Origin: a virus
Virus record (IMG/VR): IMGVR_UViG_3300014720_001820
Location: 1 to 30,960 of that record
Length of the DNA stretch: 30,960 nt
Direction: 5' to 3' (one strand)
Position numbers and translations under genes: made by a program. A model generated the notes under the pieces. That model ran no database searches. It was not told the DNA's origin and worked only from the letters and a program-made list of their open reading frames with translations. Of this stretch, positions 1,055 through 29,885 are shown piece after piece (the stretch's first letter is position 1; the number at the start of each line of letters is the position of its first letter).

Positions 1055-2146
1055 TTAAGTTTTCTGCTTTACTTGATTGTCTTTGGCTTGTTGATTTTTT
1101 CTATTTTTGGCTGCTTGTTGAATTTTGTGTCCAAGATAAGCACCAGCCACTGTGCCTGGTATGCCCGCAGCTGATCCCACCACACCACCTGCCACAGCAC
1201 CCAAAATTCCTTCTTTCTCAGGTTTATCTAACTTTTTTAATTCTTGATTCTTTTCTTTGCTGGCTAGATACTGTCGCACTGGCTCTCCCAGCTTCTTCAT
1301 GATTTTTGTTTTGAAGGGGGTACGTTGCATTTCTTGATTCAATTCAGATTCTGTTTTTCTAGTTTGCTTTGGTGCTTTTCGCATTTTCCATTTTTTATCA
1401 GTTGAACACCAGTATCGGCCATATCCTTCTTTAAATTTCAAAGGTGGAGTAGAAGGTTTATAATCTGCTGGCATAAATTTTGCATATCTATCCTGCATGT
1501 TCTTCACAGTGTTTAGGTTCTGTCCTGAATCCAAACTGATCTTTGCTGTCTCTATGTCCTGTTTGATATTCTGTATCAATTGTTGATCACCTCGTTGAGT
1601 GGCTGCATCCAACGCTCGGTTCATGGCCTGTATCACTGGCACATTGTTGTTGATGGCATTGTTGATGGAACCTATGCCTGCCACACTGCCCACAATGATT
1701 CCAGCCACAGCCATTTTTTGTAACCAATCTTTCAATCCTTCATCTAACTCTGTTTCTTTTAAATTATCGTAATTCTTTTTGAAGTAATCCTGCGCAACTG
1801 TGTAGTTACCGGATGAAAATACTGTTTTTCCGTTTTTGTCCAACACATTCCACTTGCCGTCAGAGGCCTGGCTCACGTAGGGTTTCTGTGTGCTTTCGAA
1901 ATGCCTGCTGTAAGGTCTCATCTTGGCAAACTCCCTGCCAAAACTGAATTCTTGTCTTTGAGCAAGTTCTTTGGCTGAAAATCCTGGTGCTACCACTCCA
2001 CCTCTGGCTGCTTTAGCAAAATCTGCTCTATTTTGAAAATATGCCTTGATCTCGTCCGGGGTCATCATGTCCAGTTTTTTCTTCCTGGCCGCCATGCTGC
2101 CGGACATCTTGGAGCCTTCCTGCGAAATAATGTCTCTTAATTTCAT
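1055..2146 (-). CDS. Putative virion protein with glycine-zipper segments and a prohead-protease-like site (363 aa)
   Basis: I do not recognise a named family. The N-terminal third is basic and polar. An LDE/G tetrapeptide (L134-D135-E136/G137) fits the (I/L)xE cleavage rule of the T4 gp21 prohead protease. It is followed directly by a Gly/Ala-rich hydrophobic stretch (about 145-160). A second, longer glycine-zipper-like hydrophobic segment lies near 315-345, and the C-terminus is Lys/Gln-rich. A short aromatic/Cys stretch (YGRYWCSTDKKW) lies near 245. The start ATG overlaps the upstream stop as ATGA, indicating coupling to the 72-residue gene. A membrane-active or internal virion role is possible but not shown. 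Confidence 0.65.
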   Translation of the reverse strand: MKLRDIISQEGSKMSGSMAARKKKLDMMTPDEIKAYFQNRADFAKAARGGVVAPGFSAKELAQRQEFSFGREFAKMRPYSRHFESTQKPYVSQASDGKWNVLDKNGKTVFSSGNYTVAQDYFKKNYDNLKETELDEGLKDWLQKMAVAGIIVGSVAGIGSINNAINNNVPVIQAMNRALDAATQRGDQQLIQNIKQDIETAKISLDSGQNLNTVKNMQDRYAKFMPADYKPSTPPLKFKEGYGRYWCSTDKKWKMRKAPKQTRKTESELNQEMQRTPFKTKIMKKLGEPVRQYLASKEKNQELKKLDKPEKEGILGAVAGGVVGSAAGIPGTVAGAYLGHKIQQAAKNRKNQQAKDNQVKQKT

Positions 2147-2361
2147 TTCTTTCTGCCTCTGAATTTACTGTTCACTGATCCGGTCATGTGAGGTAGACTG
2201 AACCACAATTTGAACCAGTCTGGATCACCAGGCTTTAGACCCAATTTTTTTTCTTTGTCTTTCAGTGCCTGTGCTGCGTGACTGATATTTTCCACTGATG
2301 GCATGGAGTTTGAATAAGTGTCTATGCCTGCCAGTTTTTTCAATTTATCAATCTCGTTCAT
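2143..2361 (-). CDS. Conserved-looking small protein of unknown function (72 aa)
   Basis: The product begins MNEIDKLKKLAGI, an N-terminal style I have seen in several small marine T4-like phage proteins, and ends with a basic FRGRKK tail. A central DPDWFKLWF segment is aromatic. There is no signal or membrane segment. Its stop overlaps the start of the 363-residue gene (ATGA), and its ATG lies 7 nt after the nucleotidyltransferase stop, so it is within an operon. Function unknown. Confidence 0.6.
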   Translation of the reverse strand: MNEIDKLKKLAGIDTYSNSMPSVENISHAAQALKDKEKKLGLKPGDPDWFKLWFSLPHMTGSVNSKFRGRKK

Positions 2362-4100: not shown

Positions 4101-4688
4101 CTACCAAGCTCTGCAGGACCAATAACGAGCCTTTGTTCTAGGTCCTGGGTTAGCACAGTTGTGTCTGGCTCTGAAACTTCTGCGTCTTGCTGGATTGGAT
4201 TTTTTAATACGCATGTTGGGATCACCAAAATTCACTTTGACCACATTGCCGTTGGGTTTTCGCACGTAGACCTTAAATTTTTTTCGATCGCCTCTCATGG
4301 GTTTGCCCAAAGGCACTTTGCGTCCTCTGTATTCTGCTTCATCCAAAGACTCGTCTTCGTTGAACCACATCACATCATATGCTGAATTAAAATCATCACC
4401 TTCGTAGGTTTCTTCATCCAAGTTTTCATCTGTGCTGACTTCAATATCAAATTCTTCCAAGCCCATTTCTTTCAACTGCTCATTGAGGCTTTCAGCCAAT
4501 TCATCTGCTTCAATCTCATCCAATGCTCTGTGCAGTTCCACACGCAGCACTTGATTGCCTTGTTCATCTTCAAATATTTCATATGATGTTTGATCTTCAA
4601 ACAATCCTATGGCACTTTCGCTCAACGCCACATCCACCAAGGATTCTGGGTTGATATTCTTACCTATGATACTAAAAAAATGTTGCAT
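4101..4688 (-). CDS. Putative internal virion protein: acidic propeptide plus conserved basic C-terminal domain
   Basis: The 195-residue product has two very different halves. Residues 1-113 are strongly acidic. At 115-118 is LDE/A, a match to the (I/L)xE/(A or G) sites cut by the T4-type prohead protease gp21. The last 78 residues are highly basic, with FKVYVRKPNGN, VNFGDPNM and a Cys/Arg-rich end (RARHNC, ARYWSCRAW). I recognise this C-terminal domain as recurrent in marine T4-like phages, where it often follows a short capsid-targeting-like leader. An inferred role is a processed head or DNA-associated protein. The N-terminal half may act as a scaffold-like propeptide. It begins 1 nt after the stop of the 120-residue gene. 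Confidence 0.65.
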   Translation of the reverse strand: MQHFFSIIGKNINPESLVDVALSESAIGLFEDQTSYEIFEDEQGNQVLRVELHRALDEIEADELAESLNEQLKEMGLEEFDIEVSTDENLDEETYEGDDFNSAYDVMWFNEDESLDEAEYRGRKVPLGKPMRGDRKKFKVYVRKPNGNVVKVNFGDPNMRIKKSNPARRRSFRARHNCANPGPRTKARYWSCRAW

Positions 4689-5072: not shown

Positions 5073-7319
5073 TTATGCTGTGTGAGTGCTCAAAGACTCG
5101 GTGGTTTCCAGCACTATCTTACTATCTACAGCATTGATAGTCACTTTGCCACCATGTTTTAGTTTGCCAAACAACAATTCTTTGGCCATGGGAGTTTTGA
5201 TCTCTTGATCTATCAATCGCTGCATGGGTCTCGCGCCCATTTTGGGATCAAAACCTTTGTCCACTAGGTAATCTATGGCTTCATCAGTCACAGTGACCTG
5301 TATTTTTTTATCCACTAGATATGTTTTTAAATCAGTGAGGAATTTGCCCACAATTTTAATCATGGTGGGTTTGCTTAATTTTTTAAATGTGATCACTCCG
5401 TCCAATCTGTTTCTAAATTCTGGAGTGAAGAACTTTCTAAATGCTGTGTCGGAATATCCCTCATCCATGGGATCTCCGAAACCTATGCTGCCTTTTTCTG
5501 ACTGTTCTGCTCCCAAATTGGTGGTCAATATCAGTGTTAAATTTTTGCAATCTGCCACTTTGCCATTGCTGCCACTCACTGTGCCTTCATCCATGATCTG
5601 CAACAGTATTTGACTGACATCAGGGTGTGCTTTTTCTATCTCATCCAACAGCAACACACAGTTGGGAGATTCCTGTATTTTAGTGATCAATAATCCAGCG
5701 TTTTCTTCATAGCCCACATAGCCTGGAGGTGATCCTATCAGTTTGCTGATGCTGTGTTTTTCTTGGTATTCGCTCATGTCAAATCTTACCATTTTAACGC
5801 CCAAATGTTTGGCTAACTGTTTGGCAGTTTCTGTTTTGCCACAGCCAGTTGGTCCCATGAATATGAAAGATCCTATGGGTTTGTTTTCACGTTTTAATCC
5901 TGCCTGTGCAATCAGCACTTTGTCCACAATGTTGGTGATGGCTTCATCCTGATCATACACTTCTGCTTTCATGTTCTTGTCCAAACTGGCTAGATTGCTG
6001 GATTCTCTCTGCTGTATGGTCTCCACTGGTATGGTGATGATCTTGCTGAGTTCGTATTCTATCTCAGCTGAATCTATTCTACGTGTGTCTTTGGGAGCAA
6101 TGTTGAATCTGCTGCCAGCCAGATCAATCAAATCAATGGCCTTATCGGGTAATTTTTTATCTGTTTGATATTTGCAACTCAATTTTACTGCCGTCTCAAT
6201 GGCAGCATCAGTGATCTGTGCGCGGTGATAATTTTCATAGTATTTCTTCAGACCTTTAAGTATGTCAATGGTGACTGCTTGCGTGGGTTCATCCACAGTG
6301 ATCCTTTGGAATCTTCTCATAAGAGCACGATCTTTTTCAAAGTATTTTCTGTATTCTTCCCAAGTGGTACTGGCCACCACTTTTAATGTTCCTTTGGTCA
6401 ACACTGGTTTTAATAGATTGGCCAAGTCATTGGATCCTTTGTCTCCACCACCTGCTCCAGCGCCACTGATGTTGTGTGCTTCGTCTATGAACACAATGGT
6501 TTTGCCTTTTTTCTTCAATGCTTGCAACACTATTTTGAATCGCTCTTCAAAGTCTCCTCGGTATTTGCTGCCGGCCAACATGGCACCAATGTCCAAGTTG
6601 TACACTTGATATTCTTTTAGAAACTCTGGCACTCTGTTGGTCACAATGTTCAATGCCAATCCTTCTGCTATGGCAGTTTTGCCCACTCCTGGATCACCCA
6701 CTAGAATCACATTGTTTTTCATTCTGCGTCCCAATGCCAATGCTATTTGATCCAGTTCAGCATGACGACCTATTACTGGATCTATTTTGTCTTTTTTGGC
6801 TTCCAAGTTCAAATTGGTGGTGTATAAATTCAATGCTCTCTGTGTGACCGATGCATTTTCTTCCATTCCATACTCTGTGTCTGCTTCTGAATTGAGAAAA
6901 TCCGCAAATTTTTCCTTGTCAATATTGGCTTTGGCCACAAAGAAATAACTGTGACTTTTCTTTTCACTCATCATGCTCAAAAACACATCAGTCAATTCTA
7001 TTTGCTGGCGACCACTGAACAGTGTCTGTGTGAATGCTCTATTGAGCACTCTTTCCACACCCACAGTCTTTTTGGGCTTGTATTTGGCTGGGGGGTTAAC
7101 CAGTTCTATCTCTTTGAGTCTTTCTTTGAGATATGTTTCAAGATTTTTCTTCAATGTTTCTGCATCAGCCCCAAAATCGTTGATGGTCTTGATGAATTTG
7201 TCATAGCACAGCATAGCAAACAGCAGATGTTCCACTGTGACATATTCGTGTTTGAGTTTGGCAGCGTCCTCCACTGCTTTGTCAAATATGCGTTGTAGTT
7301 CGTCGCTGGGTTCTACCAT
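5073..7319 (-). CDS. clpA: ClpA-type AAA+ unfoldase (Clp protease ATPase subunit)
   Basis: At 748 residues this is close to bacterial ClpA (about 758). Residues 1-145 form a double Clp N-domain (HEYVTVEHLLFAML). The first AAA+ module has Walker A GDPGVGKT (208-215), Walker B VFIDE (276-280) and pore loop KYRG (252-255). The second has Walker A GPTGCGKT (489-496), Walker B VLLLDE (555-560) and pore loop GYVGY. There is no ClpB-type middle coiled coil. An IGF tripeptide at 612-614 sits where ClpA carries its ClpP-docking loop, so the protein probably feeds unfolded substrates to host ClpP; no clpP is in this window. It starts 1 nt after the deformylase stop, as the last gene of dnaJ-def-clpA. 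Confidence 0.95.
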   Translation of the reverse strand: MVEPSDELQRIFDKAVEDAAKLKHEYVTVEHLLFAMLCYDKFIKTINDFGADAETLKKNLETYLKERLKEIELVNPPAKYKPKKTVGVERVLNRAFTQTLFSGRQQIELTDVFLSMMSEKKSHSYFFVAKANIDKEKFADFLNSEADTEYGMEENASVTQRALNLYTTNLNLEAKKDKIDPVIGRHAELDQIALALGRRMKNNVILVGDPGVGKTAIAEGLALNIVTNRVPEFLKEYQVYNLDIGAMLAGSKYRGDFEERFKIVLQALKKKGKTIVFIDEAHNISGAGAGGGDKGSNDLANLLKPVLTKGTLKVVASTTWEEYRKYFEKDRALMRRFQRITVDEPTQAVTIDILKGLKKYYENYHRAQITDAAIETAVKLSCKYQTDKKLPDKAIDLIDLAGSRFNIAPKDTRRIDSAEIEYELSKIITIPVETIQQRESSNLASLDKNMKAEVYDQDEAITNIVDKVLIAQAGLKRENKPIGSFIFMGPTGCGKTETAKQLAKHLGVKMVRFDMSEYQEKHSISKLIGSPPGYVGYEENAGLLITKIQESPNCVLLLDEIEKAHPDVSQILLQIMDEGTVSGSNGKVADCKNLTLILTTNLGAEQSEKGSIGFGDPMDEGYSDTAFRKFFTPEFRNRLDGVITFKKLSKPTMIKIVGKFLTDLKTYLVDKKIQVTVTDEAIDYLVDKGFDPKMGARPMQRLIDQEIKTPMAKELLFGKLKHGGKVTINAVDSKIVLETTESLSTHTA

Positions 7320-7320
7320 A

Positions 7321-7815
7321 TTAATTCAATAATTTCTGTTGTTTCTTGCGGGCCATCTCCAGTTTCACTTTGCTGACTCTGTCGATAAAGTTGATTCCAT
7401 ACAAATGATCAAATTCATGTAAAAAAATTCTAGCATCCATTTCACTCAACTTTATTATACATTCTTTCTGTTCACTGTCAAGATATTTAACCACTATGGT
7501 GTGAGGTCTACGGATTTTAAGATACAATTTTGGAAAACTGAGGCAGCCTTCCTCCAACAAAACTAAATCAGTGGTGGCTTCCTGTATGATTGGATTGATC
7601 ACAGCAAATGGTTTGGTTTTGCCTTGGATATTTTGAGGTTGCATCACAAATATTTTGGCATCCAATTGCACTTGATTGGCTGCCAATCCTATGCCTTTTT
7701 CCACAATCATGGTGTCTATCATATCATGCTCTATCTTGCCTGCATCCATGGTGTTGAAATCAAAATCTTGCACTGTGCGATCCAACCATAAGTTGGGGTG
7801 TTTAATCAAGTTCAT
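7321..7815 (-). CDS. def: Peptide deformylase
   Basis: All three deformylase motifs are present: GIGLAANQ (41-48), EGCLS (89-93) and HEFDH (133-137). Metal ligands would be C91, H133 and H137, with E134 as the catalytic base. The enzyme removes the formyl group from N-terminal formyl-methionine of new proteins. At 164 residues it is the usual length. Marine cyanophages also carry deformylases, so a phage copy is not unprecedented. The start ATG overlaps the end of dnaJ by 14 nt, and the stop is followed after 1 nt by the clpA ATG, so all three are likely made from one message. Confidence 0.95.
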   Translation of the reverse strand: MNLIKHPNLWLDRTVQDFDFNTMDAGKIEHDMIDTMIVEKGIGLAANQVQLDAKIFVMQPQNIQGKTKPFAVINPIIQEATTDLVLLEEGCLSFPKLYLKIRRPHTIVVKYLDSEQKECIIKLSEMDARIFLHEFDHLYGINFIDRVSKVKLEMARKKQQKLLN

Positions 7816-8653
7816 CTCGTAATTTTTTTATTTTTTGCAACAGTGCAGCATTGTCCACTCTGGGAGTGTCTGACACCACAGTGATGTATAAATTGCCGCG
7901 CTGACGAGCATTGTGTACATGAGGCAAACCTTCACCAGTGATATTGAACACAGTGCCGTGCTGTGTGCCTTTGGGTATGCTGACTGAAAGATTTTTTCCT
8001 GACAGAGTGCGTATTTCTTTTTTAGTGCCTAAGATCAGATCAAACACATTCACTTTGATTTTGCTGTGTAAATTTATGCCATCTCGTTCCCATGTTTTGT
8101 GTCTTAAAATTTTGATTCTCACAATGAGATCACCGCGTGGAGCATTACTGATAGAGTCACTGCCTAATCCAGCAAATCTGATCATGTTGTTGTGTTCCAC
8201 TCCGGGTGGTATGTCTATGTTCACACTCTCCTGTCGACCATTGGGCAATCTGTAGCTGGCGATCAGTGATTTGCCATGGTACACATCTTCCAACTCCAGC
8301 GTGGCTTCTATGTTGATGTCCACATTGCGCGGATTGGATCTAAATGTGCTGGCTCTGCCAAAAGGTCCTCCACCACCTCCAAAAAAATTGTTGAATATGT
8401 CATTGATATCGCCATTGAAATTATAAGTGAAATTATCACCACCTTGACGATGCATGTCAGTGGTGCCGTATCTGTCATAGGCAGCTTTTTTTTGTGGATC
8501 TTTCAGTATGTCGTAGGCTTCATTGAGCTCTTTGAATTTGGCTTCATCACCACCTTTGTCTGGATGATGTTTCATGGCCTTGCTCTTGTAGGCTTTTTTC
8601 AAATCGTTTTCATTGGTGTTGCGACTAACACCTAAAACTTTGTAAGGATCCAT
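7802..8653 (-). CDS. dnaJ: DnaJ-like co-chaperone, type II (no zinc-finger)
   Basis: The 283-residue protein opens with a full J domain (1-65) carrying the HPD tripeptide at 30-32, which stimulates the ATPase of DnaK/Hsp70. A Gly/Phe-rich linker (about 85-100) follows, then two C-terminal beta-barrel substrate-binding domains, with no CxxCxGxG zinc repeats. This is the CbpA/type II layout. No dnaK is in the window, so it would recruit the host DnaK. It heads the operon dnaJ-def-clpA and has a sigma70-like promoter immediately upstream. Confidence 0.92.
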   Translation of the reverse strand: MDPYKVLGVSRNTNENDLKKAYKSKAMKHHPDKGGDEAKFKELNEAYDILKDPQKKAAYDRYGTTDMHRQGGDNFTYNFNGDINDIFNNFFGGGGGPFGRASTFRSNPRNVDINIEATLELEDVYHGKSLIASYRLPNGRQESVNIDIPPGVEHNNMIRFAGLGSDSISNAPRGDLIVRIKILRHKTWERDGINLHSKIKVNVFDLILGTKKEIRTLSGKNLSVSIPKGTQHGTVFNITGEGLPHVHNARQRGNLYITVVSDTPRVDNAALLQKIKKLRDELD

Positions 8654-29279: not shown

Positions 29280-29849
29280 TTATTTGGTGTTCAAACGGTC
29301 GTTGATCACTGACCAATTGATTATTTTTAAAATATTTGTGATGTATCTTTTTTTAGCATCTTTGGCAGGCACATAATCCATAAAACTATGCTCCCACATA
29401 TCTATGGGCATCAATATGTCTGTGCGATAGGTTTGATTGGGAGTGGTTTTGATTTCTCCGGATCGAGCCAAGTACACCCATCCTGATCCTTGCAGTTTCA
29501 TTGTGGTCAACAGTAATGTTTCTTTGAAACTATCATAATCTTTGTGATGAGTGTTTATGAATTCTTTTATTGTGCCCTGTGGCAGATTGCTGCCTCGAGG
29601 CGCTTGCAATTGAGCCCAAAATAAATTGTGCAATTTAGCACCACCATAATTGAAATCTGCATCACCTTCACCTGCGTTGTATCTGTTCACATATCCTCGA
29701 CTCAGCACACCATAGTGATATTCCACATTGGCTCGGCTTAGAACAGGATCCAAATCACCCATGCCATAAGGCAATGTTTCTAACACTAATGTTTTTTCAC
29801 GTGATTGTTTGGCTTCAAATAGTTGAATCCATTGTTTCATGTCCTGCAT
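29280..29849 (-). CDS. Fe/Mn superoxide dismutase with capsid-targeting-like N-terminus
   Basis: Residues 25-185 match the Fe/Mn SOD fold: LPYGMGDLDP, then VEYHYG (ligand H45), AKLHNLFW (H74), the GSGWVYL stretch (121-127), and PIDMWEHSF (D150 and H154), ending in IINW. All four metal ligands are present, so it should convert superoxide to oxygen and peroxide. The His of the usual GKHH gate is absent, while Y53, at the family's Tyr34 position, is kept. Iron or manganese cannot be told. The first 20 residues are extra: MKQWIQLFEA (4-13) resembles the T4 internal-protein capsid-targeting peptide MKTYQEFIAEA, with LFE/A (10-13) fitting the gp21 protease rule. A late-promoter motif ends 5 nt before the ATG. 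Confidence 0.9.
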   Translation of the reverse strand: MQDMKQWIQLFEAKQSREKTLVLETLPYGMGDLDPVLSRANVEYHYGVLSRGYVNRYNAGEGDADFNYGGAKLHNLFWAQLQAPRGSNLPQGTIKEFINTHHKDYDSFKETLLLTTMKLQGSGWVYLARSGEIKTTPNQTYRTDILMPIDMWEHSFMDYVPAKDAKKRYITNILKIINWSVINDRLNTK

Positions 29850-29854
29850 GTCAG

Positions 29855-29861
29855 TATTTAT
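29855..29861 (-). promoter_or_regulatory. Late-promoter motif ATAAATA for the SOD gene, 5 nt before ATG
   Basis: The minus strand reads AATAAATAC then reaches the ATG at 29849; with T4 late geometry transcription would start at the A of the ATG. No ribosome-binding site is possible in between. The 24 nt beyond it (29862-29885) hold no other recognised signal. Confidence 0.55.
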
Positions 29862-29885
29862 TACAAATGTGAGCTTAAAATAATA

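Follow-up and report, generated by a model that had tools for sequence, protein, structure and literature searches.

The window, i.e., the whole stretch of viral DNA analyzed in this work (30,960 nucleotides, IMG/VR record IMGVR_UViG_3300014720_001820), harbors on its minus strand an open reading frame (29280..29849, ATG at 29849, stop at 29280-29282) coding for the 189-aa precursor of an Fe/Mn superoxide dismutase (SOD), whose sequence opens MQDMKQWIQLFEAKQSREKTLVLETLPYGMGDL. The Pfam domains Sod_Fe_N (3.2e-9) and Sod_Fe_C (1.9e-16) were both recovered above cut-off, the metal ligands H45, H74, D150 and H154 (three His and one Asp) are invariant across the viral alignments (42 and 41 rows), and the AlphaFold2 model (mean pLDDT 93.4) shows a full SOD core from which an N-terminal helix (residues 2-15) is detached; a Foldseek search with this model matched Fe/Mn SODs (E ~1e-12, TM ~0.77). 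On these grounds (Pfam, alignments and model) the claim of a complete Fe/Mn SOD with these four ligands, put forward in a sequence-only reading of the window, held, and the enzyme identity can be considered as shown. The possibility that the ORF is an annotation or frame artefact was rejected on the ORF check.

Gln120, located before GSGW, and Tyr53 are retained as in Mn-type SODs. The former residue points to a possible Mn-type enzyme, the identity of the metal and the catalytic activity being inferred from sequence alone. In the phmmer alignment, Leu49 occupies the position of human MnSOD His30, and Leu is found there throughout the aligned viral SODs; an equivalent of His30 is also missing from some Clostridia SODs (e.g., L206). 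At the position near human Tyr166, most of the viral SODs have Phe (F156 in the window).

The SOD core is preceded by a leader, MQDMKQWIQLFE (residues 1-12; 29814..29849, minus strand), which forms an amphipathic helix (moment 0.34) and which we propose to be a prohead-targeting propeptide. It ends in a predicted gp21-type cleavage site, L10-F11-E12/A13 (29811..29822, minus strand; cut between 29814 and 29813), which fits the (I/L)xE rule, and the predicted mature SOD, A13-K189 (29283..29813, minus strand), carries all four ligands. Twenty-five residues lie ahead of the LPY core, whereas most of the 27 cellular SODs compared have only 4-11 there. The claims that about 20 extra residues, LFE/A among them, precede the enzyme, and that LFE/A fits the (I/L)xE rule of gp21, were thus both upheld, cleavage before A13 remaining a prediction. 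The claimed closeness to the T4 capsid-targeting sequence MKTYQEFIAEA held only in part, that is, for length and pattern, and was overstated at the level of the letters: when scored with a profile built from SOD leaders, the T4 targeting sequences, used as a positive control, reached a low 3.9 bits and fell outside the top 15 N-termini of T4. A Sec signal peptide was rejected by inspection, a long hydrophobic core being absent.

A total of 80 IMG/VR loci with SOD relatives were retrieved and a second scan added more, with gene starts on metagenome contigs assigned by a simple script. The leaders differ among relatives (MQDMKQWIQLFE/A, MSIMRQYIDIVE/S, MNQDIRKYINLFE/A, MKLEHITE/S, MKIRQLFE/A, MRLNEVTLHE/A, MREYLDLFE/A and MIIRELLE/A). 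A strict [IL].E is nonetheless found in the leaders of 37/38 lineages when the SODs are clustered at 90% core identity, of 20/21 at 80% and of 10/10 at 70%; the corresponding values after shuffling of the leaders are 20.7, 10.8 and 5.0 (p <= 0.001). For [ILVMF].E[AST] the count is 16/21 lineages vs 2.8 in shuffled leaders. These p-values are to be read as descriptive, because the regular expressions were adjusted after examples had been seen. The sequence-only reading would have been refuted by phage SODs devoid of an (I/L)xE-containing leader; in the 66 relatives examined this was not the case at the level of lineages. Indeed, the comparison of homologues revealed that the site is kept across viral SOD lineages and that no cellular SOD (0/27) possesses the leader, so that the interpretation of the leader as a prohead-targeting propeptide is supported by comparison, the presence of SOD in the virion of this phage being inferred.

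In the phylogenetic tree, all viral SODs, including those of PA5oct, of its relative L131 and of Vibrio phage 2.275.O, split from the 27 cellular SODs on a 99/97 branch; given the long branches, the precise placement of the PA5oct and Vibrio SODs is uncertain. A bacterial contamination was rejected, since the viral SODs form a single clade and the neighbors of the gene in the window are T4-related. According to the clamp loader (56% identity), the nearest named phages are those of the PA5oct type. The SOD of Vibrio phage 2.275.O has no N-terminal leader, and a scan for its relatives found none. Its C-terminal tail, KMLDE/SVNIRHLINFISK (L083:3968-4537), resembles the leader helix; it is possible that the tag has been relocated to the opposite end, an idea resting on one sequence.

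Upstream of the gene lies an element resembling a T4 late promoter, AATAAATA (29855..29862, minus strand), which ends 5 nt ahead of the ATG. TAAATA occurs 4-6 nt upstream of the SOD start in 51/65 relatives and within 30 nt in 53/65; for comparison, a 40-nt search over all genes recovered it for 13-20% of those in each of four contigs and for 12/38 of those in the window. The late-type element is shown, and its placement predicts a late synthesis of SOD, as for head proteins, transcription being inferred from the sequence only. In the genes of several contigs (including G002, G003 and G004) the TAAATA spacing falls into two classes (~5-9 and ~20-29 nt), with SOD in the first; these might correspond to leaderless and led late transcripts, a possibility likewise inferred from the sequence.

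The leader is not confined to SOD. With the profile built from SOD leaders, matches are more frequent at the N-termini of unrelated genes than at internal stretches and, counted by family, the signature plus site occurs at 10/921 representative N-termini vs 0/3227 internal methionines (p=2.8e-7); the bare [IL].E pattern showed little or no genome-wide enrichment. In contig L032, the SOD (MKIRQLFEA) adjoins a cytidyltransferase-like enzyme (PHROG 3041) opening MHLRQIFEA, and in L081 and in the 243-kb contig G004 runs of leader-type genes surround the SOD gene. The same leader type is also carried, in five phages, by a small portal-adjacent gene which occupies the place of T4 gene 67 (MKLFEFFEA in G002, MRYKELKEA in G004, MKINDIITEG in PA5oct, MKLVELFEA in Vibrio 2.275.O and MKLTELFNPLTES in Atu_ph07). 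IscA/HesB proteins among the profile matches were discarded as false, their native start being xxLTExA.

Cys/Lys-rich cassettes (CWSGYKQIGMKKKNGKQVPNCVP, SSINCxNPKGFSQKAHC, KARYWSCKAW and MYHWCANMK) recur in leader-type proteins near SOD (window 4101-4688, G004:228833-229297, L073:6860-8061, L081:2345-3399 and L064:3300-4340), and in L064 one of them is fused onto the C-terminus of SOD itself.

In another subclade (L072, L073, L074-L077, L078 and L081) SOD starts with MDLEYLKKLAGI or a similar sequence. The alternative tag of this sister group, DLEYLKKLAGI, matches the C-terminus of the scaffold gp22 (motif ..DLKRLAGI). Indeed, the gp22 encoded at the scaffold position of six T4-related phages ends in a (D/E)LKRLAG(I/L)-type motif: ..VIDLKRLAGL in G002, ..IVNIKRLAGLRS in G004, ..VVELKRLAGL in G012, ..MDLDRLTKIAGIRK in the Vibrio phage, ..VEELRRLAGIK in PA5oct and ..INDLKRLAGIKK in Atu_ph07 (genes at L107:4057-5148, L123:13674-14765, L292:2376-3464, L085:34724-35830, L205:21476-22720 and W01:315071-316168). 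In the 518,996 aa of seven contigs the LAGI-type motif was matched nine times vs 0.63 expected in shuffled proteins, and the nine matches comprise four gp22 C-termini, one SOD and, for the rest, leader-type or MS-flagged proteins, each of the nine thus being a scaffold, an SOD or a candidate head protein. The motif is a rare one, and besides SODs it also opens small proteins of these phages. The motif is absent from T4 gp22. The scaffold match is thus shown, and we infer from it that the LAGI tag mimics the capsid- or core-binding end of the scaffold. The window itself encodes, outside the SOD gene, a related candidate, i.e., a small protein (MNEIDKLKKLAGI...; 2143..2361, minus strand) bearing this motif of gp22 C-termini and of the SODs of the other subclade.

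It is known that T4 gp23 is matured at LTE65/A66. In the major capsid proteins (MCPs) of the related phages, phi-x-E/ precedes an ATAGAT..GN segment at this same position. Eight mini-proteins (G003:35165, G004:236605, G012:17521, L032:8380, L073:9343, L074:6895, L078:6528 and L081:6839) exhibit a short leader that terminates in phi-x-E and is followed directly by the same segment as the MCP mature N-terminus, and one PA5oct protein carries an MCP-type segment after an internal phi-x-E, for 15/15 in all (MCPs, mini-proteins and the PA5oct protein). As the MCP and mini-protein sites share phi-x-E, the presumed prohead sites of this group fit the SOD leader. T4 gp61.1 (NC_000866 18966-19130; MKTFKEFIKE/DMVAGD..NISIGTTSGAVVNKGPE), compared with the sequence of T4's own gp23, looks like a similar mini-protein design. 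A gp21-family protease and a T4-type head module were found in the SOD contigs G002, G004 and G012 and in Vibrio 2.275.O, and a protease of this family, a T4-type scaffold and T4-type head genes also in PA5oct; the window is a fragment without a head module, its own protease and scaffold lying outside it.

Among named phages, the closest SODs belong to PA5oct, a Pseudomonas jumbo phage, and to its relatives. PA5oct gp223 opens MNDSIKKYISIAE/AASS, with a leader ending in IAE/A, and its record (NC_071039) is annotated ESI-MS/MS. The same annotation is present on 93 PA5oct CDS, including those of ribonucleotide reductase and thymidylate synthase as well as further enzymes not belonging to virions, and because clearly non-virion enzymes bear it, it represents only weak evidence for presence in the virion; it is the sole wet-lab hint of packaging, and a faint one. 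No annotation of this kind appears in the record of Atu_ph07. Of the flagged PA5oct proteins, 7/93 display the leader signature M[KR]-phi-x-[DE]-phi, vs 1/168 of the unflagged ones compared (p=0.0035); this holds for the fuller signature only, the bare (I/L)xE showing no enrichment among MS-flagged proteins. Consecutive genes for a ClpA-like ATPase, a peptide deformylase and a DnaJ-like protein are located at 5073-8653 of the window, and DnaJ and ClpA genes likewise adjoin in PA5oct (192924-195842).

What ties the leader to the head is that it is shared with unrelated cargo and with the portal-adjacent gene, that the alternative tag matches gp22, and that phi-x-E stands at the MCP site. We consider it likely that the leader is a head-targeting signal, every step of the following scheme (docking, cutting, packaging, injection, activity and physiological role) being inferred. 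The SOD, of the Mn type of Fe/Mn enzymes, would be made late in infection as a precursor, and its first 12 residues would act as a short amphipathic helix docking it on the prohead core (scaffold plus core proteins). A gp21-type prohead protease would then cut after LFE12, leaving the SOD from A13 onwards unattached inside the head, next to the DNA. In the sister group the DLEYLKKLAGI tag, whose sequence matches the scaffold C-terminus of these same phages, would do the job of the leader. Finally, the enzyme would most likely accompany the DNA into the next host and remove superoxide before phage gene expression, or it would protect the packaged DNA. Packaging in the head appears likely, even though it is inferred and no virion of this phage was analyzed; injection into the host, also inferred, we favor only by a narrow margin. 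The part of the sequence-only reading according to which SOD is injected and acts on superoxide, or guards the packaged DNA, accordingly remains an inference.

Other explanations can be put forward. SOD might be an ordinary phage enzyme acting in the infected cell, with a neutral or stabilizing helix and with the PA5oct mass spectrometry reflecting the carry-over of an abundant late protein. Phage Fe/Mn SOD has indeed been counted among auxiliary metabolic genes, with a possible buffering effect on the host (PMC12542629), and cytosolic enzymes are on the PA5oct list. However, a neutral extension would not hold phi-x-E in every lineage, and it would neither recur on unrelated neighbors nor be exchanged for the C-terminal motif of the scaffold, so that we regard this explanation as unlikely. 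Even less support exists for the idea that the leader addresses a membrane, a host partner or a phage compartment instead of the prohead: a short amphipathic helix is a generic shape, but the sharing with the portal-adjacent gene, the alternative tag matching gp22 and the MCP-type cut sites all indicate the head, and we judge this idea very improbable.

A different objection concerns the fate of the enzyme rather than its address. The SOD might be packaged via its leader and never delivered, either protecting the DNA or the capsid from oxidative damage or being a scaffold-associated passenger. The targeting evidence fits this alternative equally well, and ejection is untouched by the present data. 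Nevertheless, internal proteins of T4 that bear this kind of leader are ejected together with the DNA (PMC9026906), which makes delivery the default expectation, and this alternative too seems unlikely to us.

If head targeting is accepted as the preferred reading, a bolder one can be built on it, that is, a general head-loading system of these T4-related phages with two interchangeable tags (the phi-x-E helix and the DLKRLAGI scaffold mimic), which would have replaced one another on SOD, and with a cargo of enzymes (SOD, cytidyltransferase and deoxynucleotidase) and small basic proteins that would be released by the protease and delivered at infection; we regard it as slightly more likely than not. 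SODs of this type occur in many aquatic metagenome phages and, were the head-targeting reading true, they would provide the first known case of an antioxidant enzyme inside the head of a tailed phage, ready ahead of any phage gene expression. The leader and the scaffold-tail motifs would also make the head contents of uncultured T4-related phages readable from their sequences. The packaging idea is testable in the culturable relatives PA5oct or Paride (host P. aeruginosa PAO1). In the literature searched, which left subscription papers largely uncovered, mentions of phage Fe/Mn SOD were limited to its proposal as an auxiliary gene (PMC12542629), and an SOD in a phage head was not encountered; the sequence-only reading likewise knew of no such phage.

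Among known systems, the Cu/Zn SOD A245R of chlorovirus PBCV-1 (PMC7019647) is similar in that it is expressed late, packaged in the virion and proposed to lower superoxide in infection; unlike the SOD of the window, it is an unrelated enzyme of a eukaryotic algal virus, and it is not known to possess a gp21-type leader. The ejection proteins of phiKZ and SPN3US, cut by gp21-like proteases (PMC9026906), likewise reside in the head, undergo maturation by a prohead protease and reach the host, but these phages belong to another jumbo-phage lineage, the cut motif of phiKZ is S/A-x-E, and no SOD is mentioned in the relevant sections of that paper. PA5oct gp223 belongs to the same viral SOD clade and has a leader ending in IAE/A, an ESI-MS/MS annotation and a phage background with T4-type head genes; it differs from the SOD of the window in being only ~33% identical and annotated as a hypothetical protein, and its leader is not described as a targeting signal in the accessible literature. 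A further parallel is represented by T4, whose internal proteins are targeted to the prohead, cut by gp21 under the (I/L)xE rule and ejected with the DNA (PMC9026906). Like IPI, IPII, IPIII and Alt (PMC9026906), SOD would be a non-structural cargo with a proposed N-terminal propeptide (10-19 residues) fitting that rule, and a gp21/gp22/gp23-type head module is seen in related contigs. In contrast to the T4 proteins, the cargo is an SOD, its packaging and cutting are inferred, the letters of its leader differ from MKTYQEFIAEA, and the alternative tag matches the scaffold C-terminus. What may be new is SOD as the cargo of a known kind of head-targeting system and, possibly, the scaffold-mimic tag itself.
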